The notes beneath the pieces were generated by a model. It searched no databases, was not told the DNA's origin, and saw only the letters and a list, made by a program, of their open reading frames with translations. Source: a virus. Taken from it: 40,584 bases of DNA. Position 1 is the first letter of the stretch. Every line of letters begins with the position of its first letter. This document shows positions 1-40,584 of the stretch, piece by piece. The position numbers were made by a program, and so were the translations under genes. The stretch is taken from positions 1-40,584 of the IMG/VR virus record IMGVR_UViG_3300047586_000007; one strand, given 5' to 3'.

Positions 1-127
1 GGGCCAACCTGGACGGGGCCAACCTGTCCGGGGCCAACCTGTCCGGGGCCTACCTGTACGGGGCCTACCTGGACGGGGCCGACCTGTCCGGGGCCTACCT
101 GGACGGGGCCGACCTGTCCGGGGCCAA
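1..127. repeat. Left copy of 127-bp terminal direct repeat (contig closure)
   Basis: These 127 bases are identical to the last 127 bases of the window. An exact overlap of this length is what a de Bruijn assembler with k=127 leaves at the ends of a circular contig, so it is best read as an assembly overlap and not as a biological terminal repeat. The genome would then be about 40,457 bp and circular or circularly permuted. The overlap lies wholly inside a 15-bp coding repeat, so the number of repeat units at the join could be mis-assembled. Confidence 0.9.
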
Positions 128-563
128 CCTGGACAGGGCCAACCTGGACGGGGCCGACCTGTCCGGGGCCAACCTGTCCGGGGCCAACCTGTCCGGGGCC
201 AACCTGTCCGGGGCCAACCTGGACGGGGCCGACCTGGACGGGGCCGACCTGGACGGGGCCAACCTGGACGGGGCCAACCTGTCCGGGGCCAACCTGTCCG
301 GGGCCAATCTGTACGGAGAAAAAATTAAAAATACGCCTATTCAAATTGCATGTGGTATGAAATGGTGGATTTGTATAACCGAAAAACATATTCAGATAGG
401 ATGCCAGATTCATAAAGCAGAAGAGTGGTTTCTTTTCACAGATAAAGAGATTGAATACATGCACGACGAGGCATTACCGTGGTGGAAAGAAAATAAGGAG
501 ATTATTAAATCCCTTTGGTTACATCATACTAATGATTCTTATGTGGAGGAGTTATCGCAATGA
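1..563 (+). CDS. Pentapeptide-repeat protein, C-terminal part (continues from the window end)
   Basis: This is the second part of a gene that starts at 40136 and crosses the contig join. The frame beginning at base 3 is open to the TGA at 561-563. Across the join the protein is 294 residues: about 33 N-terminal residues, 36 uninterrupted pentapeptides of the type A(N/D/Y)L(S/D/F/Y)(G/R), and an 81-residue tail. The tail has a WW pair, HIQIGC and a second WW, as in a common family of phage pentapeptide proteins. Pentapeptide repeats fold as a right-handed quadrilateral beta-helix; some mimic DNA and act on gyrase, but a target here is unknown. The repeat DNA is much richer in GC than its surroundings. 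The ATG of the next gene overlaps the stop (ATGA). Confidence 0.9.
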
Positions 564-20373: not shown

Positions 20374-22080
20374 TTATTGTCCGCCCTGTGATGGCGTAAC
20401 GCCATTGGTCGGGGCCTTAGCCTTGGCCGAATTTAAATCTATCTCTGATCCCGTTTTTATAGCGTCCGCAGATTGTTGAATTGATGCAATCGCCTGGGCC
20501 TTTGCCGCGGCATTTGCTCGGGCTGTTCGTATCTCGTCAATCTCCGCGTCTGTCCTTAGAACCCGTGCAGGAGCGCCTACAATGCTCCAGGCCTCGTCAA
20601 CAACCTTATCCATAGATATTTTGTCCATGATATCCGGGGCCAATGGAGCCATCTGAGCCACCATAGTCATGCCACCAACCAGGGCGTTCATCTCTGATCT
20701 TCGTTGTGCCTGGGCCAACTGGCTTATGCAATCAATCTCAAATAATGGATCTTGTAAAAAAGCATCGGGCGGAGGGGGCAACTTCCCTTTGCGGTACAGG
20801 ATCCCAATAGTTCGAATAATCACAGGATTAAGCATTTCACTTATATATCGACCAACGGCCGGACCTAACATAGTCATCTTCTCGCTGATTCGTTCCATAA
20901 CCTCGGGGTTATTCATTTGCTTTGTAATTCCATCGAAGGCTAGGAAGACATCGTTATACATCAACGCCTTTACCTTCTGGCTGTAATACTCAATGGATGT
21001 CATGCCAACCTGTGGATTTCCGTAATTACCAAAGGTGAATATGTCCTTTGCTTCCATCTTGTTCTTGTTGTAATAATTGACAGCCCTAGGGTTTTGATTG
21101 AACGGCATAATAAAAGCGTTGTCAGGCATTGCAACAGGCGGATCTGTATGTTTCATCATCATGCGTAGATTCGTCTTAGCCATGGCGTTAAGAATGCGGG
21201 CAAAAGGAAGCGCCTTCATCGCTGGTGAGAATCCCCAAGGCATGAATGGACGTTTATCAAACCTATGACAGAAAGCTGGAAATTCCATGTATCCGCTCTC
21301 TGAAATAGTAACTTTCTCTTGATGATCTATCCAAAGCACCTCAATAGGCATGTTCTTCTTATCGGTCTTGTTTATATCTCGTCGCCATCGGGTAGCGATA
21401 TACATGATAAACTTGTACTTGGTATTTCCACGCTTTTCGCTGTTAAAGTCCTGTTGCATCTTCTCGCTTAAATTCTCAATACCAAACTTATCAGCGGCCT
21501 GGATAGCCGTGAATTCAAACTCAATGAAGTATTCGGATACTCTGCCCCTTGAATCCTCAACCAAGCAAATCTGACGGATCGGTAAGGAAAGAAAGCGCAC
21601 ATCATCTTCGATGTCATCTTCCTCAATCATGGCAGATGTTCCATAAACGCCAGACGCCTTATATGAGGTAATGATCTGATTGTAGAAATTACTCTTATTC
21701 AGGGTGTAATTGACCTGGTCCATCACATCTTCCATCCAGGTCGCGACGTCCTTATTATTCTTTAGTCCCGGACTCTTCGCTCTAATGGCCGCCCATTTGC
21801 TTGTAGGGGGCGTTAGATAGTTCATAAACCCGGAAGCCAGCACATCTGCCGACTCAAGGGTTGTGGCGTCATATAACGAATCTATGTTCAATTCCGTGCC
21901 TTGCGAGTAAGTGCGGTTAATATCCGGAGACTCAATATAGAAATAATCATGCAAAGTCTGCCAGTACGAGTCCATTGCCGCACGTTGACCCTTTAGCATC
22001 TCATAGGTTTCGATAAGTTGCTTCGACCTAGGCGTATTCATGTTTTGAGTTGAAGTCTGTTCTTCCATGGCCACTGCCAT
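20374..22080 (-). CDS. Portal protein (head-to-tail connector)
   Basis: 568 residues, the usual size of T7 gp8-like connectors. Family signals: RSKQLIETYEMLKGQRAAMDSYW near the start (helical, given in part), LYDATTLESADVLASGFMNYLTPPTSKW, a KMTMLGPAVGRYISEMLNP helix in the wing/stem region, and an Ala/Gln-rich C-terminal helix. It forms the dodecameric ring through which DNA enters and leaves the head. It follows the terminase genes and small head genes, as expected. Confidence 0.93.
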   Translation of the reverse strand: MAVAMEEQTSTQNMNTPRSKQLIETYEMLKGQRAAMDSYWQTLHDYFYIESPDINRTYSQGTELNIDSLYDATTLESADVLASGFMNYLTPPTSKWAAIRAKSPGLKNNKDVATWMEDVMDQVNYTLNKSNFYNQIITSYKASGVYGTSAMIEEDDIEDDVRFLSLPIRQICLVEDSRGRVSEYFIEFEFTAIQAADKFGIENLSEKMQQDFNSEKRGNTKYKFIMYIATRWRRDINKTDKKNMPIEVLWIDHQEKVTISESGYMEFPAFCHRFDKRPFMPWGFSPAMKALPFARILNAMAKTNLRMMMKHTDPPVAMPDNAFIMPFNQNPRAVNYYNKNKMEAKDIFTFGNYGNPQVGMTSIEYYSQKVKALMYNDVFLAFDGITKQMNNPEVMERISEKMTMLGPAVGRYISEMLNPVIIRTIGILYRKGKLPPPPDAFLQDPLFEIDCISQLAQAQRRSEMNALVGGMTMVAQMAPLAPDIMDKISMDKVVDEAWSIVGAPARVLRTDAEIDEIRTARANAAAKAQAIASIQQSADAIKTGSEIDLNSAKAKAPTNGVTPSQGGQ

Positions 22081-23149: not shown

Positions 23150-23433
23150 GCGATTCTCCCAATTAGCTTCCCAATCTGCGCCCTGCTATATTCCTTGCCC
23201 CGGTTATTAGGATTCTTTTCCCTAAAGAAATGAACTCTTATTGCCTCTGGATACGAATCAAATAAACGCGTTATAATCTTTTTTAAAACTTTCATACCCC
23301 TGGCCTGTGGATTGATGTATATATCTCCAACAAATATAGTGTCCCCACTCGGCATCAACGTGTCTTTATCAACAAACAGATACTCGCAAACACCCAACAT
23401 TCTACCTTCTGCATCTTTAACCAACTCAATCAT
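23146..23433 (-). CDS. GNAT-like acetyltransferase fold protein (95 aa)
   Basis: The order of elements fits a short GNAT domain: GVCEYLFVDKDTLM, FVGDIYINPQARGMKVLKKIITRLF (beta-4 and the acetyl-CoA loop with Q-A-R-G-M instead of the classical RxxGxG/A), then IRVHFFREKNPNN. It is shorter than typical enzymes, as are many phage members. It overlaps the terminase stop and the next start by four bases. A substrate cannot be inferred. Confidence 0.65.
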   Translation of the reverse strand: MIELVKDAEGRMLGVCEYLFVDKDTLMPSGDTIFVGDIYINPQARGMKVLKKIITRLFDSYPEAIRVHFFREKNPNNRGKEYSRAQIGKLIGRIA

Positions 23434-24752
23434 CGTACTCCGGCGATAGCAAATAGATTATCACTCTCTCTTTGCGAAAACCTAGGCTTATATTGATAGT
23501 CCTGGTTCTCTTTAACCTCATTGATTAAGCTACACGCATAGAGGAAGGCGTCAGCCATGTTTGGAGACTTGACGCCCTTTTTCCGCATATCCTCTTTACT
23601 TACAAGGATTCTGCGTCCATCGTTGGTGTACCTATAGCGCAATGTCATGAGCTCTTGGATCAACTCTTCTTGCGGGATTGCTAGCCAGCCTTTGTTAATG
23701 TACTCCTTGGCCTTGAATGCGGCCACAGTTCGAGTATTTGCAAAGTCCGGGTTATCTCCCATGCTTAAAGCCTTATTTCTGAATCCCCGGAAATCCTCAC
23801 GCTTCTGTCCTTGCGTAATAAAATCAAGCGGGCCAGAGCCAATACCATCTTCGTCGATTATAGAATTATTAACTCGGTGAGTTATCGAAGTGGATCGGAT
23901 ACGACCGGTTGTAGCATCTAAATCTTTTTGCCCCCATTGTTCTACGTGAAACACCTTCCAAGCTAAAGCTCCAAGTTGGTGTATCCCTACGGCTGCGCTC
24001 ATATCATTACCATATCGAGCAACGTCATAGCCCATGAGTCTATGCCCATATCCTACCCTGGGGGCATATTCTATAATTTTTGCGGCCATAAGATCCGCAA
24101 AGTTAAACACAAAGTCATCGTCTTCCATCTGCTCGAAGCAGTTCATTACATATTGTGCGTAATGGTTAGGCTGTTCTACTTCCATGCGCCTAAGGTCAGC
24201 AATGAAGTCTGCGGGCAGATTGGGATTATCAAACGAAGTGGCCGTGATTAGATGATATTCTTCCGAGGGCGGGTTATTCTTCCATAACTTCCAAATCCAA
24301 TTGTGCCCATTTGCATTGCAGATTATACAAAGCTGGCGCGTTCCCTTTGGATGTCGCAGACGATCCCGGAGCATTGTGAATTGTTCATCGTCTTGAAACT
24401 CTTCGGCCTGCTCAATTCCAACAAACGATAGTGACATGTTCTTCAAAGTGTTTAACTCAGATCCATGCCTAAACAACAACACGGATCCATTCTTAAACTT
24501 ATATTCTTTATTGGAGTCGATATCAACGTTGAAATAGCGCTTAAAATCTTTAACAGTAGAATCTCTTAAATCGGTGAATTCATTGCGGACAATTAATCCC
24601 GTCGATCCCGGGTGCATCTCGGCGTGAGACCATGCCTTTAACAAAAGCATCTTTGTCTTACCGGATCCAACGCCTCCACAAAGGCACGGGAATTTCTTGT
24701 CGGAGAAAAGGAATTTATCTTGATAGGGAAGCAATTGAATCGTCTCAGCCAT
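23430..24752 (-). CDS. terL: Terminase large subunit
   Basis: The packaging motor ATPase and nuclease. Walker A is GGVGSGKT at residues 26-33; the Walker B-like LSFVGIEQAEEF follows; and a coupling motif lies in CIICNANG. The C-terminal nuclease has YDVARYGNDMSA, SIIDEDGIGSG and SPNMADAFLYA, which supply the acidic metal ligands. 440 residues is normal. It overlaps the small subunit gene by eight bases. Confidence 0.95.
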   Translation of the reverse strand: MAETIQLLPYQDKFLFSDKKFPCLCGGVGSGKTKMLLLKAWSHAEMHPGSTGLIVRNEFTDLRDSTVKDFKRYFNVDIDSNKEYKFKNGSVLLFRHGSELNTLKNMSLSFVGIEQAEEFQDDEQFTMLRDRLRHPKGTRQLCIICNANGHNWIWKLWKNNPPSEEYHLITATSFDNPNLPADFIADLRRMEVEQPNHYAQYVMNCFEQMEDDDFVFNFADLMAAKIIEYAPRVGYGHRLMGYDVARYGNDMSAAVGIHQLGALAWKVFHVEQWGQKDLDATTGRIRSTSITHRVNNSIIDEDGIGSGPLDFITQGQKREDFRGFRNKALSMGDNPDFANTRTVAAFKAKEYINKGWLAIPQEELIQELMTLRYRYTNDGRRILVSKEDMRKKGVKSPNMADAFLYACSLINEVKENQDYQYKPRFSQRESDNLFAIAGVR

Positions 24753-25262: not shown

Positions 25263-25454
25263 TTAAACGTTTACTCTTCTACTTGGAACCGTTCTTTCTG
25301 TTTTTCTACGCTTTCGGCACACCAATATGTGGTTCTTCCATTGACAAACCGGATCCCCGCAGGTGGCATAAATAGCCGCTCTAACCTTACATATTGGGCA
25401 AGGCGGGCCGATGGTTGTTACGGTTACTTCGGTTCTTGTATGTTTAATTTCCAC
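25263..25454 (-). CDS. Small zinc-ribbon-like protein
   Basis: 63 residues from a GTG at 25454, chosen because GGAGG lies just upstream; an ATG four codons earlier contains that site. CPIC near residue 20, then CGDPVCQWKNHILVC, give a plausible zinc site. It overlaps the end of the glycosyltransferase gene by 31 bases. It may bind nucleic acid or simply be a structural zinc knuckle. Function unknown. Confidence 0.55.
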   Translation of the reverse strand: MEIKHTRTEVTVTTIGPPCPICKVRAAIYATCGDPVCQWKNHILVCRKRRKTERTVPSRRVNV

Positions 25455-26005
25455 CAGATCCTCCATGATTCAACTAAAGCCCTATAAATGATACCTATCC
25501 CCTTCTTTTTAGTGATATTGCATTCTACGGGCACTTCTGCAATCCTAAGACCCATCCTTCGAGCCTTTGCCAGGATCTCCAGGTCAGATGCAAAACCGTC
25601 GCATTCCCATGTGGGTATGCAATTCGATCTAAATAGCTTTATTCCTGTCTGCGTATCAACCCCGATATTGAACATAGCCCTTATATAGATTCGGCTTAGG
25701 AATGTCAGAGCTCGTCTTGATAATATCTTCTGTTCCGATTTACGGCCAACGACGATGTCATAATCTGAAATGAATGGCAATAGGCGATATAGCATCCTAG
25801 GATGAATATCTCCATCTCCATCGAGGAAAGCTATGATGCTCCCCTTGGCTTCTAGCAGTCCTTGTCTAAGCGCCCAACCTTTGCCGCGACCATCAAAGTC
25901 ATGTGCAATTATTACTTGCGATCCAGGGAATAATGCCGTGCATATTCTCTTTGTTTCACAAACTCTTATCTCTCTATGAGATGGGAGAATGATTGTTAAT
26001 GTCAT
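25424..26005 (-). CDS. Glycosyltransferase family 2, polyprenyl-phosphate sugar synthase-like
   Basis: 193 residues from the ATG at 26005 (ATGA overlap with the upstream gene). It follows the DPM1/ALG5 plan: TIILPSHREI opening, GRGKGWALRQGLLEAKGSIIAFLDGDGDIHP with the DxD metal site, DIVVGRKSE, DTQTGIKLFRS, then DLEILAKARRMGLRIAEVPVE. Enzymes of this branch move a sugar from its nucleotide to polyprenyl phosphate on the inner face of the membrane. It has no membrane helix of its own. The overlapping upstream gene encodes a TMTC/PMT-like protein, the class of enzyme that uses such a lipid-linked sugar. Confidence 0.85.
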   Translation of the reverse strand: MTLTIILPSHREIRVCETKRICTALFPGSQVIIAHDFDGRGKGWALRQGLLEAKGSIIAFLDGDGDIHPRMLYRLLPFISDYDIVVGRKSEQKILSRRALTFLSRIYIRAMFNIGVDTQTGIKLFRSNCIPTWECDGFASDLEILAKARRMGLRIAEVPVECNITKKKGIGIIYRALVESWRIWWKLNIQEPK

Positions 26006-27312
26006 AGGACAATTCCCATATTCCCCTCTTTCCATTCTTTCAATAGCTTCTTCGCCTGATCTTCTTGCCCTTTGACGATACTCTTCTCAGCTCGCTCAAG
26101 TAGCTTTAATGCGTTGGGCTTATGACCACCCATATGTAGAGCAGTCGCAAGATTAAGATTCAACTTAAACTCCTCAGGGGATATCTGTAATGCCGTTGAC
26201 CATAGAATTACCGCTTCCTGGTATGATTTAAGTTCCCATCGTTTCATGGCTTTAACATGCCATCCAAACCAGGCGTCGGGGCTATTTAGATTTGAATATT
26301 CAGTAAGAAAGTAATCATCCTGAAATGCGTCCATATAGAACCACATCTTTGTGGCATAACAAGCAATAACCCCGGCTACAATCACAGGATGAGCCACTAT
26401 AAGAGAGCTTAGGAAGAACATAAGACCCACATTGGGTTGGTACATATACCGCTCTGCAATCTCTTGATGAATCCTGAATATGTTCCCAAACTGGGCCATA
26501 CAGAAGAACCACCAGACTAATGCGAAGTTTGACATATCCCACTTATGCAGAGTCAAGTAAAGTGCTGATCCTATGAATACACAGACACCTAGCCAGAACC
26601 AACGACAATTCATTGTGTATGCTTTTTTCTTTCCTGATCCTGCGGCGCTCTGTAGAAAGGAATGATAGAAGGTTGTCTTGACTGGTATAATTCCATTAAC
26701 AAAGTAGAATCCCATTGTCTTAGTGAACAAGACAAGTTTTCTTGGATGCCAGGCCTTGTCTTCTTCAAACGCTTCCATTGCTATCTTATGACCAACGTTT
26801 CGTTTGAACCTAGTCCAATGAATTGCCCATATAATCGGCATCAGTAAAGCAACCCACCACGCTTTTGTTAGTAATAGCAATAACGGCGTAATAAATCCAG
26901 CGTTGAAGTATGCGCCGAATAGTATGAATATTGGCCCAAGTATTGGGATTGACATCGCCATAAGAAGAGACAGCGCTGATAATGCGTATGCTCTTCCTGC
27001 GATCCAGACAGATACCTGATTATTGGAAGGATTAAAAGCAAATAGTAGTGCGGCTACATATGAAATATCAGACGCTCCGAATCCGACATAAAGAAATACG
27101 CATACCAGTGAATGTATAAACATTGTGAGTGCATGATCTACTTGGTGAGAATGTCTGCCGCGTCCCTCGATATAGCCTAACATTCTTATCCATGCGACCG
27201 GATGCTTAGGTCTCTGGCTTGCAGGAATGTCGTCGGATGAATAGCGATAACATATCGTCTTTGAATAAAAGATAAGATTTGCCAATAAAATTATCGCTAT
27301 ACGTTCAAGCAT
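26002..27312 (-). CDS. Multi-pass membrane protein with C-terminal TPR, TMTC/PMT-like (GT-C)
   Basis: 436 residues from the ATG at 27312 with AAAGGG upstream, overlapping the previous stop by eight bases. About eight to ten hydrophobic segments occupy the first 320 residues. HQVDHALTMFIHSLVCVFL, then AALLFAFNPSNNQVSVWIAGRAYALSAL, resemble the HP..xExVxWIxGRxxLL pattern of TMTC-type O-mannosyltransferases, and ERYMYQPNVGLMFFLSSL matches their ERYLYLPS-type loop. The final 90 residues form TPR-like helices (SYQEAVILWSTALQISPEEFK; LNLATALHMGGHKPNALKLLERA). A role in moving a lipid-linked sugar to an exported target is inferred. The catalytic acidic pair typical of PMT is not clear. Confidence 0.65.
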   Translation of the reverse strand: MLERIAIILLANLIFYSKTICYRYSSDDIPASQRPKHPVAWIRMLGYIEGRGRHSHQVDHALTMFIHSLVCVFLYVGFGASDISYVAALLFAFNPSNNQVSVWIAGRAYALSALSLLMAMSIPILGPIFILFGAYFNAGFITPLLLLLTKAWWVALLMPIIWAIHWTRFKRNVGHKIAMEAFEEDKAWHPRKLVLFTKTMGFYFVNGIIPVKTTFYHSFLQSAAGSGKKKAYTMNCRWFWLGVCVFIGSALYLTLHKWDMSNFALVWWFFCMAQFGNIFRIHQEIAERYMYQPNVGLMFFLSSLIVAHPVIVAGVIACYATKMWFYMDAFQDDYFLTEYSNLNSPDAWFGWHVKAMKRWELKSYQEAVILWSTALQISPEEFKLNLNLATALHMGGHKPNALKLLERAEKSIVKGQEDQAKKLLKEWKEGNMGIVL

Positions 27313-28294
27313 GTAATAACCCTTTCTTAATACCACGAAAGGTATACTGAATATCAGCTAAACTCCTTATATCCTTTATTTTATTTTTCCAGAACTCTGG
27401 GAACTTGGCCACGTCATACAGCCTTCTAGAATTCCCTCTATCGACGAAACGCTCCCCTTCAACACAGAACTTTGATATCTGTGCCGTTTTGGCGTAACCT
27501 TTCCTAAGTAAATAATGAATTCCTTCAAAAGTGCGACTTTCTTCTTCTGCGGTCTCCCACGGGTATCCGTACATAAAAGCGATATGACTTTCAATTCCGG
27601 CATGATTTGCTCTGGACACGTCATCAATGATTCTTTCAACTCGTACCCCCTTATTTAAACGATCAAGCGTTGGTTGATTAAACGACTCGATTCCAAACAG
27701 AATCATCCTAAATCCTGCCTTGCGCATGGCCTTAAAGTCAACGTCTGCGCCAATACGCATATTACAGCCAAGTCTTGGTGGTGGAAGCCTGCAATTAAGA
27801 AATGATCTAAGCCAGTCTCCAATAGGAAATGTGCCTGAATCGTCAAATACTTCTTTAAAGCCTTGATCGTAACAATCCCACAATTCCTTTTGTACATCAA
27901 GTACGGGCCTTATATGTCTTTCTTCCTGCATTGAAGTTTCAACACAGAACGTACACTTACGCCACCAGCAAAGGTTTGATGCTTGAATATACGTACCAGG
28001 CCTATACTTAAAGTTTCCGTTTCCCTGCCAGATATCTTCTTTCCCACGCGTAAGTATCCTATCAGCTCCAGGTAACTGCGAGAATGACACATCAATCTGA
28101 GACTCTTTATGGATCATATGGTCACACCACATGTCCATACCTTTCATCTGCGAGACATCTGTTATCCAGTGAACCTCGTTACCTTGTTGCTTTAGATAAG
28201 TTGCGTACATTGCCATCTTGATTGGGAATATGAAGACTTCCTGTTCAAGTTGGCGCTGTTGCATCCTCTTATTAATTACGAATATGTATTTCAT
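27305..28294 (-). CDS. Radical SAM enzyme, variant cluster motif
   Basis: 329 residues. The cluster motif is CWWRKCTFC (Cys 109, 114 and 117), a C-x4-C-x2-C spacing like the CPWNKCTFC found in many B12-type radical SAM proteins, rather than plain CxxxCxxC. Later elements fit the barrel: FKEVFDDSGTFP, LGCNMRIGADVD, FGIESFNQPTLDRLNKG and AFMYGYPWETAEEE. The N-terminal 100 residues are a partial cobalamin-type fold (FPIKMAMYATYLKQQGNEVHWI). Its substrate is unknown; neighbours suggest sugar or lipid chemistry. It overlaps both neighbouring genes. Confidence 0.8.
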   Translation of the reverse strand: MKYIFVINKRMQQRQLEQEVFIFPIKMAMYATYLKQQGNEVHWITDVSQMKGMDMWCDHMIHKESQIDVSFSQLPGADRILTRGKEDIWQGNGNFKYRPGTYIQASNLCWWRKCTFCVETSMQEERHIRPVLDVQKELWDCYDQGFKEVFDDSGTFPIGDWLRSFLNCRLPPPRLGCNMRIGADVDFKAMRKAGFRMILFGIESFNQPTLDRLNKGVRVERIIDDVSRANHAGIESHIAFMYGYPWETAEEESRTFEGIHYLLRKGYAKTAQISKFCVEGERFVDRGNSRRLYDVAKFPEFWKNKIKDIRSLADIQYTFRGIKKGLLHA

Positions 28295-29052
28295 TTATAA
28301 GATTCTAATGTAATTGCAAGTCCTTTATCAAATCCTATAGGTTTCACGTGTAACGGATTCATTGCAACGCAACGTTGCTTATCCCCCTTACGTCTTTGCC
28401 CATAAATAGGACTCATCTTGTAATCGAAATGCGGAGCCATAGCATCGAATAACTCTTGCACTGATACACCCTTGCAGTATCCTACATCCCAAACCCCGGT
28501 TGTGGAGTCAAGGGCGTAGTGCATGATCTCACTAATAACGTCATCAATATAAATATAATCACGCACCTGAGAACCATCCCCATGGAATGTAATGGTCTTT
28601 CCTTTTGACATAGCAGTAGCGAAGATAGGAATAACAAGATCGTTGCATAAATTACCAGGACCAAACGGATTGAACACTCGTAACGATACGCATTTGTCAT
28701 GTAATTTTCCCATCTGTTCGGTTAGGAACTTGGTCATGCCATAGGCAGACTCAGGATTCTCAGCGGCACAGCTACTTATATTAATAATGCGAGCCTTTGG
28801 ATTCTCTTTAAGGACTCGATACGTGCCATAGACGTTGTTATGGAAATACTCAGATGATATCTTCTCACTCTCCGTAACACTCCTAAGTGCGGCTAAGTGA
28901 AATACAACGTCATAAGACCCAAACAGTGGATCCCTGCATATGTCTTTCCCACGCTTAATATCAATGTTATCGAATGTCCAGCCCATGTTCAGAAGTCGAG
29001 AGCAAAGCGCTTTACCAATGAATCCTGAGCCACCTGTTATTAGCGCTTTCAT
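28291..29052 (-). CDS. NAD-dependent sugar epimerase/dehydratase
   Basis: 253 residues of the short-chain dehydrogenase type. GGSGFIGKAL near the N-terminus binds NAD; the active site is SSCAAENPESAYGMTKF with the YxxxK pair and an upstream Ser; RVFNPFGPG and DYIYIDDV are further hallmarks of GalE-like enzymes acting on nucleotide sugars. It is shorter than typical GalE (about 330) because the C-terminal substrate part is reduced. ATGA overlaps link it to both neighbours, placing it in the same pathway as the glycosyltransferases. Confidence 0.88.
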   Translation of the reverse strand: MKALITGGSGFIGKALCSRLLNMGWTFDNIDIKRGKDICRDPLFGSYDVVFHLAALRSVTESEKISSEYFHNNVYGTYRVLKENPKARIINISSCAAENPESAYGMTKFLTEQMGKLHDKCVSLRVFNPFGPGNLCNDLVIPIFATAMSKGKTITFHGDGSQVRDYIYIDDVISEIMHYALDSTTGVWDVGYCKGVSVQELFDAMAPHFDYKMSPIYGQRRKGDKQRCVAMNPLHVKPIGFDKGLAITLESYK

Positions 29053-29978
29053 CTAGCATCCTCTCTTCTTATTATTTCTATCATATGTTTCGCCATGTTC
29101 TTTCTGTAAAAGTTCGACAGTTTCTTTAGACACGACGAGGGTATTAAAATGGCTATCAGGGAATAGAACCAAAACGACACGCTTGTCAGAACCCAACGGT
29201 TTATTCTTATACTTGAGCATATTTCCCTCCACAGGTTTTTGGGTGCATTACATTTTATTTGAATTAATCCTTCCGGAAAGCTTAAAGGACGCCCTAAGAC
29301 TTTGAACCAATTTTCGTACATCGAGCCTTGATAGTATTCTTCTTTGTTTGCCGTATTGATTCCACTGCCAACCCTAACAGCTATGCTGTCATACTTAATA
29401 AAAGCATAGTCCCATTTATCAATAGCTTGCTTTACCACATAAGGCATTTCTATAAATATATCATTAGTAAACTTATATTTATCTTTTCGAAAGGCCATTC
29501 CGGATGGGTTACAGGAAGATTGAACGATATCTTCGTCTCGGCTAACCATTATTGGAATATGTGACGCATTATCTAAGAACTGATAGAAATAATGTCCTAT
29601 TACACCAACCCTTGGGTCTTCTTTAAACTTTGTGATAATGTCGCTAACTACATAATCGTTAGTAAATATATCATCAGCGCATAGATATACAACTATCTTG
29701 CCCTTGGCCAGTTTCATACATCTTTCAAGGTTTCCACCAATACCAAGATTCTTATCATTCTTTACTATCCTAACTCTACTACGAAGAATATTGTCTGCCG
29801 CTTCAGCCATTCTAATTGTGTTGTCTGTTGAATTATTGTCAACCACCAATATTTCTATTCCATCATAAGGAACAATAGAATAAGTATTAAAAAATATATT
29901 CTGTTTCATTGCGCTTTTAATGGATTCATATATTGTCTTCTCACTGTTATACGCAGGAATAGCGATTGTGACTACCAT
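29049..29978 (-). CDS. Glycosyltransferase family 2 with C-terminal membrane segment (copy 1)
   Basis: 309 residues from the ATG at 29978 (AAAAGG upstream); an ATG at 29996 lacks a ribosome site. GT-A elements: TIAIPAYNSEKTIYESI, ILVVDNNSTDNT, NLGIGGNLERCMKLAKGKIVVYLCADDIF with the DxD-type CADD. The C-terminal 70 residues (NRWVLTSVSFWFYSLIAILIP and a basic RRED end) form a membrane hairpin. The protein is a clear paralogue of the one at 31576: both share the same CADD, PSGMAFRK/PSGLAFRK and LIQIK blocks and the same C-terminal membrane segment. Confidence 0.88.
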   Translation of the reverse strand: MVVTIAIPAYNSEKTIYESIKSAMKQNIFFNTYSIVPYDGIEILVVDNNSTDNTIRMAEAADNILRSRVRIVKNDKNLGIGGNLERCMKLAKGKIVVYLCADDIFTNDYVVSDIITKFKEDPRVGVIGHYFYQFLDNASHIPIMVSRDEDIVQSSCNPSGMAFRKDKYKFTNDIFIEMPYVVKQAIDKWDYAFIKYDSIAVRVGSGINTANKEEYYQGSMYENWFKVLGRPLSFPEGLIQIKCNAPKNLWREICSSIRINRWVLTSVSFWFYSLIAILIPSSCLKKLSNFYRKNMAKHMIEIIRREDAR

Positions 29979-31276
29979 TTGAATAACCTTTTCCATGTGA
30001 AATATATTTGGTTTTGGATTATAGTCTGAGGAAGAAAGTCCTGCTTAATCCTTATGTACAAGGCCAGCTTTATAAGCCAATCAGGCATCTTTTCCCATCT
30101 TGGCCCCAATGGGATAGCCAGCATCTTCCTCACCCAAGGATTGATTTTAGCGACTCTTTGGTGTTCTCCTGACGCGTAGACCGACCCAAGACCTCTTTCG
30201 ATCCTATAATTATCGCTTTCTTTAAGATATCCTTCGGAAATGGCGGTCTTGATGATCGCCGATTTTGGGAAGTAGAGTAGTTTGAAGCAGTGGATAAGGT
30301 CTGGACTTGCCGATTTGTAGAGTTCGTAGCTTTGTGCGTTTGTGGCATCGCTCTCTCCTGGTATCTCGAATATGTGATCTACAATGAAGGTTATTCCTGC
30401 TCGTTTAATAAGACTAGCCGCCTTTAGAAACTCAGCGTTAGTCTCGTATCTATTCAAAGCTGTTCGCCTTAGTTCCTCCGATCCTGTTTGGATACCCATG
30501 TCTATGGTGTAGCACTTACACTCTTTGAGCCAACCTACTATCTCATTATCGACGCATTTGGGATGCGTAAGGCATCTGAAGGGTAAGTCGATCTCCTCTT
30601 GGTATCTAACTAGGAAGTTTACAAGCCATTCCTTATCTCGGGTGAAGGTGTCGTCCCATATACTAAAGCGCTTAGCACCCATGGCCTTTAGTTCTTTAAG
30701 TTCACGGATACACCCGTCAATGGTACGCCTAGGCGCCTTGATCTTTAGCTCCCTGGGCAGGCAATAGGAGCAAGAGAAAGGGCATCCAAAATCAGTCATT
30801 ATAAATGGGTGTACTCTATGGCAGGGCGGCAACTCCCTATAAAAATCTTCTCTTGCGGGGAATATACGATCAGGATCAAATTTAAAACCAAAATAAGCAC
30901 AGCCATCACCTTCAACAACATCGTTAATGAACGTATTTTCTCGTACAACATTCGGAACACTCGTAGCATGAACACCTCCGAATATTATTTTACATCCAAC
31001 CTCGTCTTTAATTCGTTTAGCTATGCGTAGCGCCCATTGATAATGAGCAGTAAGGCATGAAAATAGGCAGGCGTCTGGATTGAATTTCTTTATTTGTTTT
31101 ATATTGTAATCTTCAACTGAGAATGCCCTAGCTAAGAATGAGTCTTTAGTTCCACCTTGTGAGTGGTGCATCGGATCAAATATAAGCTTAACCTCATGAC
31201 CGTGATGCCTAAGGTGTGAGATCATGTATGCGGGGCCAAGTGCAAAAGTATCAGCTACTACTATGCAGTACTTCAT
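29972..31276 (-). CDS. B12-binding-type radical SAM enzyme
   Basis: 434 residues. The N-terminal 130 form a Rossmann-like domain of the cobalamin-binding type (PAYMISHLRHHGHEVKLI, KIIFGGVHATSVPNVV). The cluster motif is CPFSCSYC (Cys 165, 169 and 172). FSIWDDTFTRDKEW, IDMGIQTGSEELRRTALNR and IVDHIFEIPGES follow, as in class B methylases and ring-forming enzymes. These proteins often modify sugars, lipids or antibiotics. The C-terminal 80 residues are basic and may sit at the membrane. A DxHxxG B12 motif is not clear, so cobalamin use is uncertain. Confidence 0.85.
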   Translation of the reverse strand: MKYCIVVADTFALGPAYMISHLRHHGHEVKLIFDPMHHSQGGTKDSFLARAFSVEDYNIKQIKKFNPDACLFSCLTAHYQWALRIAKRIKDEVGCKIIFGGVHATSVPNVVRENTFINDVVEGDGCAYFGFKFDPDRIFPAREDFYRELPPCHRVHPFIMTDFGCPFSCSYCLPRELKIKAPRRTIDGCIRELKELKAMGAKRFSIWDDTFTRDKEWLVNFLVRYQEEIDLPFRCLTHPKCVDNEIVGWLKECKCYTIDMGIQTGSEELRRTALNRYETNAEFLKAASLIKRAGITFIVDHIFEIPGESDATNAQSYELYKSASPDLIHCFKLLYFPKSAIIKTAISEGYLKESDNYRIERGLGSVYASGEHQRVAKINPWVRKMLAIPLGPRWEKMPDWLIKLALYIRIKQDFLPQTIIQNQIYFTWKRLFKW

Positions 31277-31446: not shown

Positions 31447-31607
31447 TTGAATCCTTTTAGTTGATATTTAGATCTACAATCGTTTTCTATAACTGCTCGC
31501 ATGGTTATAACTCCATCCGTAGATTTGTAGGAAGCTCTGAAAGTAACGCCACGCTTTCGATTCTTCATTCTTGACTCATATCTTTTCTGTGCTTCCGACA
31601 AAGACAT
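31434..31607 (-). CDS. Small basic hypothetical protein (57 aa)
   Basis: Start at 31607 has AAGGAGAGAAG directly upstream, a strong ribosome site, and the first 32 bases overlap the end of the upstream glycosyltransferase gene. The N-terminus is basic (SEAQKRYESRMKNRKRG) and two Cys lie near the C-terminus. This gene fills most of the apparent gap between the glycosyltransferase and radical SAM genes. Family unknown; a nucleic-acid-binding role would fit the charge but is not shown. Confidence 0.55.
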   Translation of the reverse strand: MSLSEAQKRYESRMKNRKRGVTFRASYKSTDGVITMRAVIENDCRSKYQLKGFKCLQ

Positions 31608-32502
31608 CTTCTCTCCTTATCGCCTTTGTAATGTATCTTCCGATCCAGCGCCTATAGAACTTTGGGAGTTTAATAAGTATCTCTCTTGGCGTGGCAAGAG
31701 CAATGATCCCGAAGAACCAAAACCCCGGGACAAGTAAGTTGAGGGGACGAAGACGGACAAAGTTGGTAATCTCTTCGAAGACTTCTTTGTTCGTGAGCCC
31801 GTTCTTGATTTGGATGAGCGACACATGATCTTTTAAAATCTCCTTTCCTCCTAGGTTAACCCAATCCACAACCGGTGACGATACCCGGCGCTTAATCCAG
31901 TAGCCAGGCTTAGTTGATGTGGAATCGTGCACTCGCACTGCAATTGCATCGTAAGGAAGAATTGAATAGCCCCATCCGTTAGCTATAACTTGAGATGTTA
32001 ATTGAGTTGTCTCTATAAACATCTTATTGCTTGTGCTACATCCTTGAAGCGCAGTCTTTCTGAATGCAAGCCCTGAGGGATTATTTGCTAAAACAATAGC
32101 ATCCTTTCCTCTCCACGCCCTGACCGGGTGCCTATCGTTACCTACGAACTGGTGATACCATCTGGATACGTGTCCTATGCCTGGACGTTTAAATGCGTCG
32201 ACGACATCGTTAACATATTGTCTAGTTGTAATCAAGTCATCTGCGCACATGAGTATTATGATCTCACCCTTACACGAATCAATAGCCGCCTGAAACGCCT
32301 TGCCAACCCCAACATTCTCTTTGCCCTTGATATACCTAACGCCAAGGGAAGTCCAATCAATATACTGAGTTGCGTCAGTTGAGTAGTCGTCATAGACCAC
32401 AATCTCGATATTCGTATAGTCTTGATTCTTAATACTATTGATAGTTTCTAGTATTAAGTGCCCCATTTGATGTGTTGCAATTGCGAAACTAACGGTTTGC
32501 AT
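31576..32502 (-). CDS. Glycosyltransferase family 2 with C-terminal membrane segment (copy 2)
   Basis: 308 residues. GT-A elements: SFAIATHQMGHLILETI, IEIVVYDDYSTDATQYI, NVGVGKAFQAAIDSCKGEIIILMCADDLI with CADD as metal site. The C-terminal segment (LLVPGFWFFGIIALATPREI and a basic RRED end) matches that of the gene at 29049, so these two arose by duplication. Membrane attachment suggests action on a lipid-linked or envelope acceptor. Overlaps both neighbouring genes. Confidence 0.88.
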   Translation of the reverse strand: MQTVSFAIATHQMGHLILETINSIKNQDYTNIEIVVYDDYSTDATQYIDWTSLGVRYIKGKENVGVGKAFQAAIDSCKGEIIILMCADDLITTRQYVNDVVDAFKRPGIGHVSRWYHQFVGNDRHPVRAWRGKDAIVLANNPSGLAFRKTALQGCSTSNKMFIETTQLTSQVIANGWGYSILPYDAIAVRVHDSTSTKPGYWIKRRVSSPVVDWVNLGGKEILKDHVSLIQIKNGLTNKEVFEEITNFVRLRPLNLLVPGFWFFGIIALATPREILIKLPKFYRRWIGRYITKAIRREDVFVGSTEKI

Positions 32503-33187
32503 AATAAATGATCCCCCGAACGATTATTACAAAAGCGATACCAATAGAAAGAATCGGATGCCTAACTAGCTTTTGCCACTTTCTATTTTCAACAAAAACC
32601 GTAAAACACCTATACTTTAAATCTAAGCACTTATCCTTTGGCCATTTGGCGGCATAGGCACGCATTGATTTTGTGTAGTATGCCTTCTTTCGGCAGTATT
32701 CAAGGAATGACACATCGTCATGGTGGTATAGAACGCTGTCCGTAGTAGTTCTTAGCCCCTTAATCCTCTGGCCCAAATCTGCATCCTCTGGGCCAACCAG
32801 ACTTTCGTCAAAAAGGGGCATACAACGCTTCAAAATCGCTCTAGGCACATCAACGGCCGTACCTGTGAGAAAAGATCGCTCAAAGGCCCTAATCCGGGCA
32901 AAGAAAGATGTTCCTACGATGATTTCAGGGATGTAAATACTGCTATACCCTATCTTGAGGAGCCAGTTGATCTCTTTTAGCAGATCTAGGGATATAGTCT
33001 GGTCACTATCAAGCCACAAGATTGCATCCCCGGTAGACTCTTGGATCCCCATATTCCTTTGCTTGGATCGCTCAAATCCTCGGTTTATTTCTATAAACTC
33101 AACATCTTTATGCGTGGATTTATCGATAGAATCCTTAAGGGCAGATAGGTCTCTTCCGTGGTTCGCCACTACAATCGAGATTTTCAT
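32489..33187 (-). CDS. Glycosyltransferase family 2 (third type)
   Basis: 232 residues from the ATG at 33187, which overlaps the upstream stop as ATGA; a longer in-frame start lies inside the flavoprotein gene and is a shadow. KISIVVANHGRDLSALKDSI opens the GT-A fold; KQRNMGIQESTGDAILWLDSD supplies the DSD metal site; PLFDESLVGPEDADLGQRI carries the ED acidic residues typical of family 2. A C-terminal hydrophobic segment (ILSIGIAFVIIVRGIIYY) anchors it to the membrane. Sequence is unlike the paralogous pair nearby. Confidence 0.85.
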   Translation of the reverse strand: MKISIVVANHGRDLSALKDSIDKSTHKDVEFIEINRGFERSKQRNMGIQESTGDAILWLDSDQTISLDLLKEINWLLKIGYSSIYIPEIIVGTSFFARIRAFERSFLTGTAVDVPRAILKRCMPLFDESLVGPEDADLGQRIKGLRTTTDSVLYHHDDVSFLEYCRKKAYYTKSMRAYAAKWPKDKCLDLKYRCFTVFVENRKWQKLVRHPILSIGIAFVIIVRGIIYYANR

Positions 33188-34287
33188 ACGTCCAACCCGT
33201 CCTCTACAGATGCCGAAATTCCCTGGAATTTCCATTTGCCATAACGCCCAATCGAATGAATATCGTATTCCCGCATGGACTCTAACATCCCCGGCCTGGG
33301 ATCCCTGCCGGGATAAACCCACGTATATCCGCACGGAATAATAACCTGATCTGAATACACAGCACCGCCAATGAATCCCCAATCTGAGAGTTCATTTATG
33401 ATCTTGCTCTCGCTTGATACAGGAATCCCCTTTGCGATTGCTTGCTCTACATAAATAGACACATAGTCCCCACCTGGCGCCGATTCCTTATGGACATTGC
33501 TATAAAATCCAACTCTATATATATTGCTCTTAGATAACGGAATATATAACCAATGCTCTTTCGGGGTATTCGGGCCTTTGTAAGCGCCTATATTTGTAAT
33601 CGAGGTTGAGTTATAAGGGAGATTCTCAGGAAGATCACATATCTGGTACAGCTTATTTAATGGGATTGTAGATATAAGGCGGTCATACTCTACATCCGAC
33701 CCGTCTGAAAACTCGACAACCTTTACCTTTATAAATATCCGAGTCGCTTCTTTCTTGTACTCTATCTTGCTTGTAGACGCTAACTTCTTAATAATAGAAT
33801 CAAAGCCATGTTTAGGATAGTAGAAACAATCATTATATCCCGATCCCCGTGGGTCAGGGGTCTTTGCGGGATCGTCCTGCGCCACATTGTTATATAACCC
33901 TGCTGTGTATGATTCGCTCCAGGGGTCAAAGAACATCGAGCAAAGATCCTTGCTGAATTTTCCATGAAACCACGCTTTCATAGTTCCGGGGTTTACTTCT
34001 GATTCGCTTTGTGTGAAGGTCTGGATCGGGTAGGGTAAAATCTTATTAAAATAAATTCCGGCATCTCGCTTATATTCTTTCAACTCTCCAAACTGTCTCA
34101 GGAAATCTATCGCCCTTCCATGTCCAAAGATCCAATGCCCCCCGCCCTTCTCAAAGGTGAATCCGCTCTTCCGGTATGTCATACTGATACCGCCAGGGCC
34201 ATCAGAGGCTTCGTAGATATCTGCGTCACCGATCTTCCATGCGGCTGTTAAGCCTGTGATTCCCGCTCCGAGGATTACTGTTTTCAC
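33184..34287 (-). CDS. FAD-dependent oxidoreductase, UDP-galactopyranose mutase / amine-oxidase-like
   Basis: 367 residues from a GTG at 34287 with AAGGAATTCCA upstream and a GTGA overlap with the preceding stop. GAGITGLTAAW (residues 7-17) binds the ADP part of FAD; GPGGISMTYRKSGFTFEKGGGHWIFGH and YPIQTF follow, then VVEFSDGSDVEYDRLISTIPL. This order is shared by UDP-galactopyranose mutases and related flavoproteins found in surface-polysaccharide gene clusters. A ring-contraction or related sugar reaction would fit its neighbours; the exact reaction is not shown. Confidence 0.8.
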   Translation of the reverse strand: MKTVILGAGITGLTAAWKIGDADIYEASDGPGGISMTYRKSGFTFEKGGGHWIFGHGRAIDFLRQFGELKEYKRDAGIYFNKILPYPIQTFTQSESEVNPGTMKAWFHGKFSKDLCSMFFDPWSESYTAGLYNNVAQDDPAKTPDPRGSGYNDCFYYPKHGFDSIIKKLASTSKIEYKKEATRIFIKVKVVEFSDGSDVEYDRLISTIPLNKLYQICDLPENLPYNSTSITNIGAYKGPNTPKEHWLYIPLSKSNIYRVGFYSNVHKESAPGGDYVSIYVEQAIAKGIPVSSESKIINELSDWGFIGGAVYSDQVIIPCGYTWVYPGRDPRPGMLESMREYDIHSIGRYGKWKFQGISASVEDGLDV

Positions 34288-34772
34288 TGGAATTCCTTTT
34301 GATATGCATAACTTCGACAAGACTTGCTTTTCAAGTAATTTATCTGATCCTTTGTTAAGTCATAAAAAAATGTCATATCAGAAAGATTAAAAAGAACCAT
34401 CGGGCTTTCACGAAATATCCTATGCTCCATATTTTTTTCAAGTTTGTGTAAAAAATTTCCATATACCTTCCCAAGCATCTCATCTACAAAGAAAATCATT
34501 ACTGGCAATCCATGCTTTAAAGAAATTTTTTTATAACAATCGTAAGATCTTTTATCAAACCCTGTTTTTGGAACTGAGTTCAACCGGGCTTTTGTTTTTG
34601 TTTCAGCAATAATTATGCTATCCTTATTCTTTATCGCCAGCCTATCAAATGCGTGTGGGCCTATCTTTTGTGGCTCGTATATAACAAATCCTTTATCTCT
34701 TAGAATTTTGTTGACGATATCTTCTCCAAAATCGCCCTTTTGAACCTCTTTTTTCTCATCCCAACAAGCCAT
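34284..34772 (-). CDS. PD-(D/E)XK-type nuclease-like protein
   Basis: 162 residues from the ATG at 34772, inside the end of the methyltransferase gene. A candidate nuclease core is visible: GDFGEDIVNKILRDKGFVIYE (Glu 17), AFDRLA (Asp 43) and IIIAETKTKAR (Glu 57, Lys 59), the spacing of PD-(D/E)XK enzymes such as resolvases and restriction-type nucleases. It follows the adenine methyltransferase, so a restriction-like or DNA-processing link is possible but not shown. Fold assignment from motif pattern only. Confidence 0.6.
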   Translation of the reverse strand: MACWDEKKEVQKGDFGEDIVNKILRDKGFVIYEPQKIGPHAFDRLAIKNKDSIIIAETKTKARLNSVPKTGFDKRSYDCYKKISLKHGLPVMIFFVDEMLGKVYGNFLHKLEKNMEHRIFRESPMVLFNLSDMTFFYDLTKDQINYLKSKSCRSYAYQKEFQ

Positions 34773-35829
34773 TTTCAACGCCCCCGGTGATAATCCCTTC
34801 CTTCTTTTCCCTCGAATAATATTCAAACATATTTCCTGCGCAAGTCTTCTTAACTAATGAATAGAATTCTACAGGCTTTCTTGAATGCTCTCTTCTCGTA
34901 GATCTAATAATATCTCTTTCCGTTGTATTGTGAAAGTATGGCCTTCCCTTAACAGCCAATAAACAAAATTCACATTGCATTCTAAGCCAAGAACCCATTC
35001 CAATTTTCTCTTTATCCCAAACAAGTGTTGCTTTATATGTAAACCCCCATCTTTCAATTAACTCTTTAGCATCCCAAATAAATTGATGCGTTGTCCATAA
35101 CCATAAAACGCAATCATCTTTAAAAAATCCTTTACTGGTATTAAATATCTCTTCAGCATCTTGCTCTGGATACGGGCACGCCACCCTTGAAGAGTCGGGA
35201 TCGTATTCTCTTCCATACTTCCACGGAGGGTCTAAAATAACAACATCAAACTTGCCTTCAACCTTTTTCTCTTCGATTATTTTCTTTTTTATTTCTTCTA
35301 GTTTCTTCGCTCTTTTCTTCTTTTTAACTTCTTTAGTTGGAGTTCTTTCTATAATTGCTTTCATCAACTCCGGGTCGGCCTCTGCCTCCGTTGCGTACTT
35401 TCCCGCATTTCGCACCGTTTTCTCGCTAACTCCATGCTCGGTTGCTAGGGTTTCGGAGGTTCTGCTAACTGGGTAACTTTTACCCAGTATTCCTTCTGGC
35501 CTTCCTTCAGCCTTTTTCGTCCTGTTATACCTTCTCCCCAACGCCAACCTGAACGCGTCCGGGGTTAGGTTGCGACGGGATAGTTGGTTGGCATCTATCC
35601 AGTCAGCCGCTTGTTCTTCTGTTTTAAAATTTATCCTTTTTACCCTAAAATAAATCCCAAGTTCCGTGCAAATTTTATACCTATTATGCCCATCAATAAG
35701 AACATTACCCCAGACAATCAATGGTTCTCTACATCCATCGCTTATAATGCTTTCCTTTAGCCCATTAAATTCTTCGTCAGATAGTCTTGGAAGAAGGCTT
35801 TCAAACTTTTTTATTATTTCTATTTCCAT
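34756..35829 (-). CDS. ParB-like domain fused to MT-A70 adenine methyltransferase
   Basis: 357 residues. The N-terminal 150 form a ParB/Srx-type domain (LIDGHNRYKICTELG at about 44-58; a helix-turn-helix-like SETLATEHGVSEKTVRNAGKY), which would bind DNA. A lysine-rich linker (170-190) leads to the methyltransferase: DVVILDPPWKYG with DPPW at 200-203, VLWLWTTHQFIWDAKELIERWGF and REHSRKPVEFYSLVKK. MT-A70 enzymes make N6-methyladenine; phages use this to protect their DNA or set regulation. It is the first large gene of the leftward unit, so it is probably made early. Confidence 0.9.
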   Translation of the reverse strand: MEIEIIKKFESLLPRLSDEEFNGLKESIISDGCREPLIVWGNVLIDGHNRYKICTELGIYFRVKRINFKTEEQAADWIDANQLSRRNLTPDAFRLALGRRYNRTKKAEGRPEGILGKSYPVSRTSETLATEHGVSEKTVRNAGKYATEAEADPELMKAIIERTPTKEVKKKKRAKKLEEIKKKIIEEKKVEGKFDVVILDPPWKYGREYDPDSSRVACPYPEQDAEEIFNTSKGFFKDDCVLWLWTTHQFIWDAKELIERWGFTYKATLVWDKEKIGMGSWLRMQCEFCLLAVKGRPYFHNTTERDIIRSTRREHSRKPVEFYSLVKKTCAGNMFEYYSREKKEGIITGGVENGLLG

Positions 35830-40135: not shown

Positions 40136-40584
40136 ATGAAAATCCAAATAAAAAAATGGTTAACTCGTTCGGTTATTTTTGAATGTGATGCAGATGGAAT
40201 TAAGATAGCCGTTGAATTGGCTGTTAAATCCGGGGCCAACCTGTCCGGGGCCAACCTGTCCGGGGCCGACCTGTCCGGGGCCAACCTGTTCAGGGCCAAC
40301 CTGTTCAGGGCCAACCTGTCCGGGGCCAACCTGTCCGGGGCCAACCTATCCGGGGCCGACCTGTTCAGGGCCAACCTGGACGGGGCCAACCTGTCCGGGG
40401 CCAACCTGTCCGGGGCCTACCTGTACGGGGCCGACCTGTCCGGGGCCGACCTGTTCAGGGCCAACCTGGACGGGGCCAACCTGTCCGGGGCCAACCTGTC
40501 CGGGGCCTACCTGTACGGGGCCTACCTGGACGGGGCCGACCTGTCCGGGGCCTACCTGGACGGGGCCGACCTGTCCGGGGCCAA
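40136..40584 (+). CDS. Pentapeptide-repeat protein, N-terminal part (continues at position 1)
   Basis: ATG at 40136 after GGAGGAGAATT. The N-terminus [20 protein letters not shown], then [13 protein letters not shown], is typical of phage pentapeptide proteins; the repeats start near residue 34 and run past the window end into position 1. Joined at the 127-base overlap, 322 plus 563 bases give 885 bases, exactly 295 codons, with no frame break. A 75-base block of the repeat is duplicated in tandem (two [20 protein letters not shown] runs), so the repeat number may vary between individuals. Confidence 0.9.
40458..40584. repeat. Right copy of 127-bp terminal direct repeat (contig closure)
   Basis: Identical to bases 1-127. 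The base before it (A at 40457) belongs to the last repeat unit that differs. See the left copy for the interpretation as assembly overlap of a circular genome. Confidence 0.9.

Follow-up and report, generated by a model that had tools for sequence, protein, structure and literature searches.

The virus record IMGVR_UViG_3300047586_000007, analysed over its whole stretch of 40,584 bases (the window), encodes a 436-residue multi-pass membrane protein with a C-terminal TPR (26002–27312, minus strand, hereafter −). On the evidence of its AlphaFold2 model and of VIA-align and hhalign comparisons, it is a TMTC-like glycosyltransferase of the GT-C type, with predicted transfer activity. Together with a short family-2 glycosyltransferase (GT2) encoded next to it, the protein would, on balance, form a phage-encoded transmembrane glycosylation system that remodels the envelope of the infected cell, the acceptor most likely being a host envelope protein. 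The fold class, the conserved catalytic-site residues, the homology of both enzymes and the conserved neighborhood were obtained by computation. Phage-driven envelope glycosylation is known chiefly from the gtr clusters of temperate enterobacterial phages.

A Pfam search with the single 436-residue sequence gave only a weak TPR match. An AlphaFold2 model built from a 17-sequence alignment reached a pLDDT of 84.7 and a pTM of 0.80; an initial four-sequence model was of low quality (pLDDT 65.2) and was discarded. The top match of the model in VIA-align was Pmt4 (9i5k), with a Z of 16.8 and an rmsd of 4.0 over 276 aligned residues. Ranks 1–16 were all GT-C proteins (Z 14.0–16.8 over 250–285 residues), and ranks 2–16 included ALG12, AglB, PglB, ArnT and STT3. 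The other rows shown were TPR proteins fitting the C-terminal part, plus two GT-C entries (3wak and 9s6u). Because a common helical arrangement can bring helical models to a Z of about 14, assignment to the GT-C fold rests on the purity of the ranks, the coverage and the profile match described below. Foldseek by itself ranked TPR proteins first and gave no match at E ≤0.001, the GT-C match coming from VIA re-ranking; a BFVD fold search with the GT-C protein likewise gave no match at E ≤0.001. The possibility of a non-GT-C membrane protein was considered and rejected, as Pfam returned no confident membrane family in the 17 aligned members, only stray matches to PHO4 (0.014) and DHHC (0.059) in single members. 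The structure prediction and profile search that an earlier note on this DNA had called for thus lead to GT-C.

Eleven membrane helices were counted by eye in the model, placing the loop at residues 166–191 inside and the DD loop, the ER loop and the TPR outside. The number of basic residues fits an inside loop at 166–191; six are, however, found in the first outer loop as well, so that this count does not settle the matter. The TPR helices at the C terminus (residues 347–428; 26029–26274, −) are supported by Pfam, PDB sequences and the fold, as in TMTC proteins, and are predicted to be extracytoplasmic, with the membrane side taken from the 11 model helices. TPR_2 was matched at E ≤0.1 in 9 of the 17 members.

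The same note had drawn attention to a TMTC-like WIxGR/ERYxYxP pattern and had asked whether the first outer loop contains acidic residues; these features are indeed present. They comprise the DD motif D27-D28 (27229–27234, −), which corresponds to TMTC motif M1 and the putative GT-C catalytic acid and is found in the first outer loop of 38/38 covered relatives, W103-I-A-G-R107 (26992–27006, −) and E287-R-Y-M-Y-Q-P, of which E287-R288 (26449–26454, −) is the ER of TMTC motif M7. Residues H60, W103, R107, Y109, Y216, H217, E287 and R288 are each conserved in 39/39 full-length relatives, a set comprising the 41 records described below minus L037 and L042, whose split frame falls below the length cut. 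In these two records the GT-C frame lies in two pieces (L037:5267-7224 and L042:2-816), reflecting either decay or an assembly error. DD and ER are retained in all covered relatives across 27%–53% identity. A chance match to the pattern was rejected on the basis of this residue conservation and of the profile match with its reversed control. The dN/dS ratio was 0.05–0.09 in the four usable GT-C pairs, a rough estimate with dS of 2.2–2.5 near saturation.

Seven TMTC motifs, M1–M7, are tabulated in Table 4 of PMC7801869, and M1–M5 and M7 were scored here. Besides the DD of M1 in EL1, the E and R of M7 (ERxxY, EL5) are invariant (39/39), with the Y found in 20/39 and replaced by A or C in the remainder. 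For M3 (RxD, EL2), R107 is kept and the third position is instead Y109. In the alignment of 17 no stretch resembles M2 (SHKSYRP, EL1), and both M4 (KE(T/Q)xxT, EL3) and M5 (DW, EL4) are absent; EL4 carries the invariant Y216-H217, which may stand in for DW. DUF1736 (PF08409) was not matched at E ≤0.1 in any of the 17 members. Since M2, M4, M5 and DUF1736 are missing, the protein is TMTC-like and not a strict TMTC. The description of a TMTC/PMT-like membrane protein given in the earlier note therefore holds for the GT-C fold and the TMTC-like layout and fails for TMTC in the strict sense.

A genome search with the GT-C profile retrieved TPR proteins, mostly of 500–660 residues, in the phylum of genome G001. 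When 14 of these cellular TMTC-like proteins were aligned and compared with the phage family, the match extended over the whole length (hhalign 99.9%, E 2.2e-31). With the TPR cut off, the membrane part alone gave an E of 1.3e-25, and the reversed control 0.076, indicating that the homology is independent of the TPR. DD is invariant in 14/14 of the cellular relatives, and Pfam PMT_2 is matched in 4/14. Archaeal genomes gave TPR matches only, apart from a phage-like contig. A PF08409 search in G001 and G002 returned no match; the controls were likewise silent, making this search uninformative.

The GT2 gene (25424–26005, −; PF00535, 4e-9) encodes a probable polyprenyl-phosphate sugar synthase, as judged from its sequence relatives. 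The 21-member profile matched enzymes of known structure in the PDB, namely the P. furiosus DPM synthase (5mlz, 1.1e-9), ArnC (6.4e-7) and GtrB sll0501 (4.4e-6), which bears out the suggestion of a DPM1/ALG5-like enzyme. The DGD motif (D72/D74 in the 203-residue numbering) and QTG-K-F are invariant in the 21 members. The match to 5mlz consists of two pieces covering partly the same query residues, so that a segment of the GT2 is missing or reshaped relative to DPM synthase. The protein is also shorter than DPM synthase, ArnC and GtrB, and no membrane helix was seen on reading the sequence.

Both reading frames of the pair proposed in the earlier note are real, and the GT2 start overlaps the stop of the GT-C gene. 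Two starts are possible. ATG 26005 gives a protein of ∼193 residues and an overlap of exactly four bases (ATGA, 26002–26005), and ATG 26035 gives 203 residues and a 34-base overlap; the alignment of homologues favors ATG 26005. This four-base overlap is not a general feature among relatives. From an ATG it recurs only in L007-L009, which represent one near-identical population; in L019 the overlap is 16 bases if its ATG is taken as the start and 4 bases with a GTG, and the two genes abut with no overlap in L084, L085, L099 and L102. GT2 follows GT-C in 9/41 records, within 268 nt in 8 of these, and elsewhere, where seen, it lies 2.5–6.6 kb upstream of GT-C.

The most constant partner of GT-C is the upstream radical SAM gene, not GT2. 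In the window this gene (27305–28294, −; PF04055, 1.3e-9) shares 8 bases with the GT-C gene and encodes a protein with a CX4CX2C motif (C109, C114 and C117) and a profile relation to 9ccb and AprD4. Among records with enough upstream DNA, 33/37 have a radical SAM gene immediately upstream of GT-C (<450 nt); it is farther upstream in L002 and L021 and was not found in L039 and L018, and four records were too short. The coupled GT2/GT-C pair envisaged at the outset is thus adjacent in the window, but the tightest conserved coupling is to radical SAM, with GT2 mostly elsewhere.

Beyond the radical SAM gene, the cassette continues on the minus strand with an NAD-dependent sugar epimerase/dehydratase, a GalE-like SDR (28291–29052; PF01370, 3.5e-28; galE, 7.8e-23, below the NCBI cut-off), a family-2 glycosyltransferase (29049–29996; PF00535, 5.8e-27) and a B12-binding radical SAM protein (29972–31276; PF04055, 6.5e-15; PF02310, 2.5e-11). 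Two further family-2 glycosyltransferases follow (31576–32502; PF00535, 4.1e-20; and 32489–33382; PF00535, 4.2e-6), the second with relatives in several cassettes and its true start probably inside the ORF. The last member is an FAD-dependent oxidoreductase (33184–34320; PF01593, 2.2e-13), possibly and weakly UDP-galactopyranose-mutase-like (GLF only at E 0.18). The sugar genes of L038 encode a DegT aminotransferase, a methyltransferase, a GT4, GT2s and SDRs, and the cassette at L011:1082-3766 includes a further radical SAM gene and a transketolase split into halves. These two relatives and the window suggest a constant attachment core paired with exchangeable sugar chemistry. No Wzx-type flippase was found in the 17 long records, nor a GtrA-type flippase (PF04138, 0/17), for which the control was positive in 7/14 genomes.

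The phage backbone is of podovirus type, with terminase, portal, major head protein and tail protein genes. The cassette has the same orientation as the packaging and structural genes and lies directly upstream of them, the large terminase subunit (TerL; 23430–24752, −; phrog_2, 2.5e-36) being downstream of the sugar genes. The portal or head-tail connector (20374–22080, −; phrog_332, 1.1e-121), used as an independent probe, is 30%–33% identical to those of Pelagibacter podoviruses among the matches listed. Small Cys-rich ORFs with a similar CPxC...C-x4-C pattern, recognized by reading, are located between the GT-C/GT2 genes and TerL both in the window (25263–25466) and in another record (L097:6964-7482). 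Elsewhere in the window, a DNA methyltransferase is fused to a ParB-like domain (34756–35829; phrog_359, 1.9e-39, with weaker matches to ParB families). Both ends of the window (1–316 and 40229–40584) fall within one GC-rich 15/90-base tandem array resembling a pentapeptide-repeat gene, which points to a probably circular or complete genome cut inside this gene.

GT-C relatives were collected from three IMG/VR scans and two MAG contigs. After removal of L004, a copy of the window itself, and of L005, which represents the L022 contig, the set comprises 41 distinct records, namely the window and 40 others that encode GT-C relatives. Among the 17 long records, the GT2 family is present in 14 and radical SAM in 16; the GT2 misses are L002 and L041, where a contig end is near the cassette, and L039, where it is not. 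As a control free of selection for GT-C, loci were fetched with the portal, using the best 80 of 121 matching loci. TerL with 2.5 kb or more of DNA on its upstream side is present in 28 of these, and GT-C was found in 26/28, the two without it (L112 and L128) having between 2.5 and 4 kb of upstream DNA. With at least 4 kb, GT-C was present in 20/20, radical SAM in 19/20 and GT2 in 14/20. The remaining 52 loci were too short or without TerL and were left out of the count; one of these, L089, with 10 kb of upstream DNA, carries neither TerL nor GT-C. Many of the portal-fetched loci are on contigs already obtained in the GT-C scans, L097, L099 and L102 being new. Within the best 80 of 121 portal loci (20/20 testable at ≥4 kb), GT-C is core to the lineage and near-universal. 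No match to GT-C was obtained in INPHARED phages, also with the L038 protein as query, or in plasmids.

Some members depart from this arrangement. The same GT-C family occurs at L039:9965-11314, in a phage of 40 kb whose structural module is of another kind, and at L097:3842-6960 the GT-C neighbors resemble, by reading, methyltransferases and a membrane-anchored hydrolase; both lack the radical SAM and GT2 families. Tyrosine integrase (PF00589) is present in 3/17 long records and absent from the window, and lysogeny alone therefore poorly explains a near-universal cassette. The two MAG loci are on contigs of 37–41 kb binned as Saccharibacteria and Methanoperedens MAGs. As these are about the size of the phage genomes, both may be misbinned, and no host is claimed.

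From these data we infer the activity, sugar, lipid carrier, flippase, acceptor and benefit of the system as follows. In the cytoplasm, the small GT2 would load polyprenyl phosphate with a sugar whose synthesis and modification fall to the phage SDR, FAD enzyme and radical SAM proteins. A host flippase would carry the lipid-linked sugar to the outer face, where the 11-helix GT-C could use it for glycosylation of an exported acceptor. The likeliest acceptor is a host envelope protein, which the extracytoplasmic TPR would hold. The likely benefit would be an altered surface of the infected cell, leading to receptor masking, superinfection exclusion or released progeny not binding spent cells. 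This reading is supported by the GT-C fold, the TPR-independent homology, the conserved DD and ER, the relation of the GT2, the sugar enzymes nearby, the lineage-wide presence and the low dN/dS. Counted against it are the lack of a GtrA or Wzx flippase in the long records, the missing M4 and M5, the lacking or reshaped GT2 stretch and the two records, L039 and L097, in which GT-C is accompanied by neither radical SAM nor GT2 family genes. No acceptor gene was recognized. Protein O-glycosylation is plausible because the GT-C carries a TPR. A more specific form of the proposal can be put forward tentatively, namely a lineage-defining O-glycosylation of exported proteins with a radical-SAM-modified sugar, by TMTC-like enzymes that form a phage branch and whose active site is rewired (YH for DW, no KE); it would rely on a host flippase and be a core phage function, not optional cargo.

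It is possible, rather than probable, that GT-C transfers the sugar to a polysaccharide of the host and not to protein, the polysaccharide being lipid-linked or part of the cell wall (for example O-antigen or teichoic acid) and the TPR only recruiting partner enzymes. The gtrABC genes provide a phage precedent (PMC11436027), bacterial GT-A/flippase/GT-C systems are described as acting on wall polymers (PMC8035078), and the cassette resembles polysaccharide loci in its several GT2 genes and sugar enzymes. However, the outer-side C-terminal TPR is the layout of the TMTC-type protein O-mannosyltransferases (PMC7801869), the GtrA flippase is missing from the 17 long records, and Gtr II was matched in 0/17 GT-C members. 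The absence from the alignment of M4 (KE) and M5 (DW), compared with the same TMTC motif table (PMC7801869), and the constancy of the radical SAM partner would fit a GT-C-fold protein devoid of transfer activity that serves to tether radical SAM and the cytoplasmic sugar enzymes to the membrane, its TPR forming the platform. This is improbable, given that DD and ER persist at such divergence, that the cellular relatives have DD too and that the invariant YH of EL4 may replace DW. Tailed-phage virions assemble in the cytoplasm, and the DD loop and TPR are predicted, from the model and established GT-C topology, to face away from it, which makes glycosylation of the phage's own virion proteins very improbable. 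The position of the cassette, co-directional with the packaging and structural genes and immediately upstream of them, and its near-universal presence in the lineage would suit such a role, and own-virion glycosylation has been suggested for some mycobacteriophages (PMC11256854). Envelope glycosylation of a host protein is thus the reading we retain. If the system acts on protein, it would constitute a viral protein O-glycosylation pathway with a lipid-linked sugar and offer a compact TMTC relative for study of the minimal active site.

Among the closest cellular counterparts are TMTC1-4 (GT105), which share with the phage protein an N-terminal GT-C core, DD in the first outer loop, W-GR and ER stretches, 11 helices (by reading of the model) and an outer C-terminal TPR. 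The phage protein differs in its short TPR, in the missing M2, M4, M5 and DUF1736, in being phage-borne and in its place beside a radical SAM gene. Bacterial TMTC orthologues exist, and a glycosylated phage receptor in Streptomyces is mentioned (PMC12757957). Pmt4 and the PMT family (GT39) provide the best fold match and a DD-type acidic motif; in contrast to them, the phage protein has a TPR, no MIR domain was seen, and Pfam PMT was not matched at E ≤0.1 in the 17 members. The division of labor between a GT-A and a GT-C enzyme is shared with multi-component transmembrane glycosylation of the CsbB/GtcA/YfhO type, among which a variant with a cytoplasmic GT-A is reported (PMC8035078). Those systems are cellular and act on wall polymers, and the available part of that paper describes no radical SAM for them.

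The earlier note knew of no phage system of this kind, a view that does not hold at the general level. gtrABC serotype conversion in P22 is a described phage system altering the cell envelope (PMC11436027), and a dolichyl-phosphate-mannose protein mannosyltransferase is annotated on marine phage contigs (PMC5705922). The latter, likened here by annotation, is a single gene call, and the portion of the paper available mentions neither a GT2 paired with it nor a radical SAM gene; beyond this mention, the literature surveyed, with few subscription papers covered, contained no account of a TMTC-like or radical SAM glycosylation system in a phage. With gtrABC, the present system shares a GT2 lipid-sugar synthase and a membrane transferase in a phage, the envelope alteration being known for gtrABC and proposed here. 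It differs in that no GtrA flippase was found, the GT2 is without membrane helices by reading, the GT-C belongs to another family and bears a TPR, radical SAM and sugar-making genes are added, and tyrosine integrase occurs in only 3/17 records. The system is best read as gtr-like in logic, but built from a TPR-bearing TMTC-like enzyme, the radical SAM protein as its partner and an exchangeable set of sugar-making genes beside the packaging genes of uncultured podovirus-like phages.
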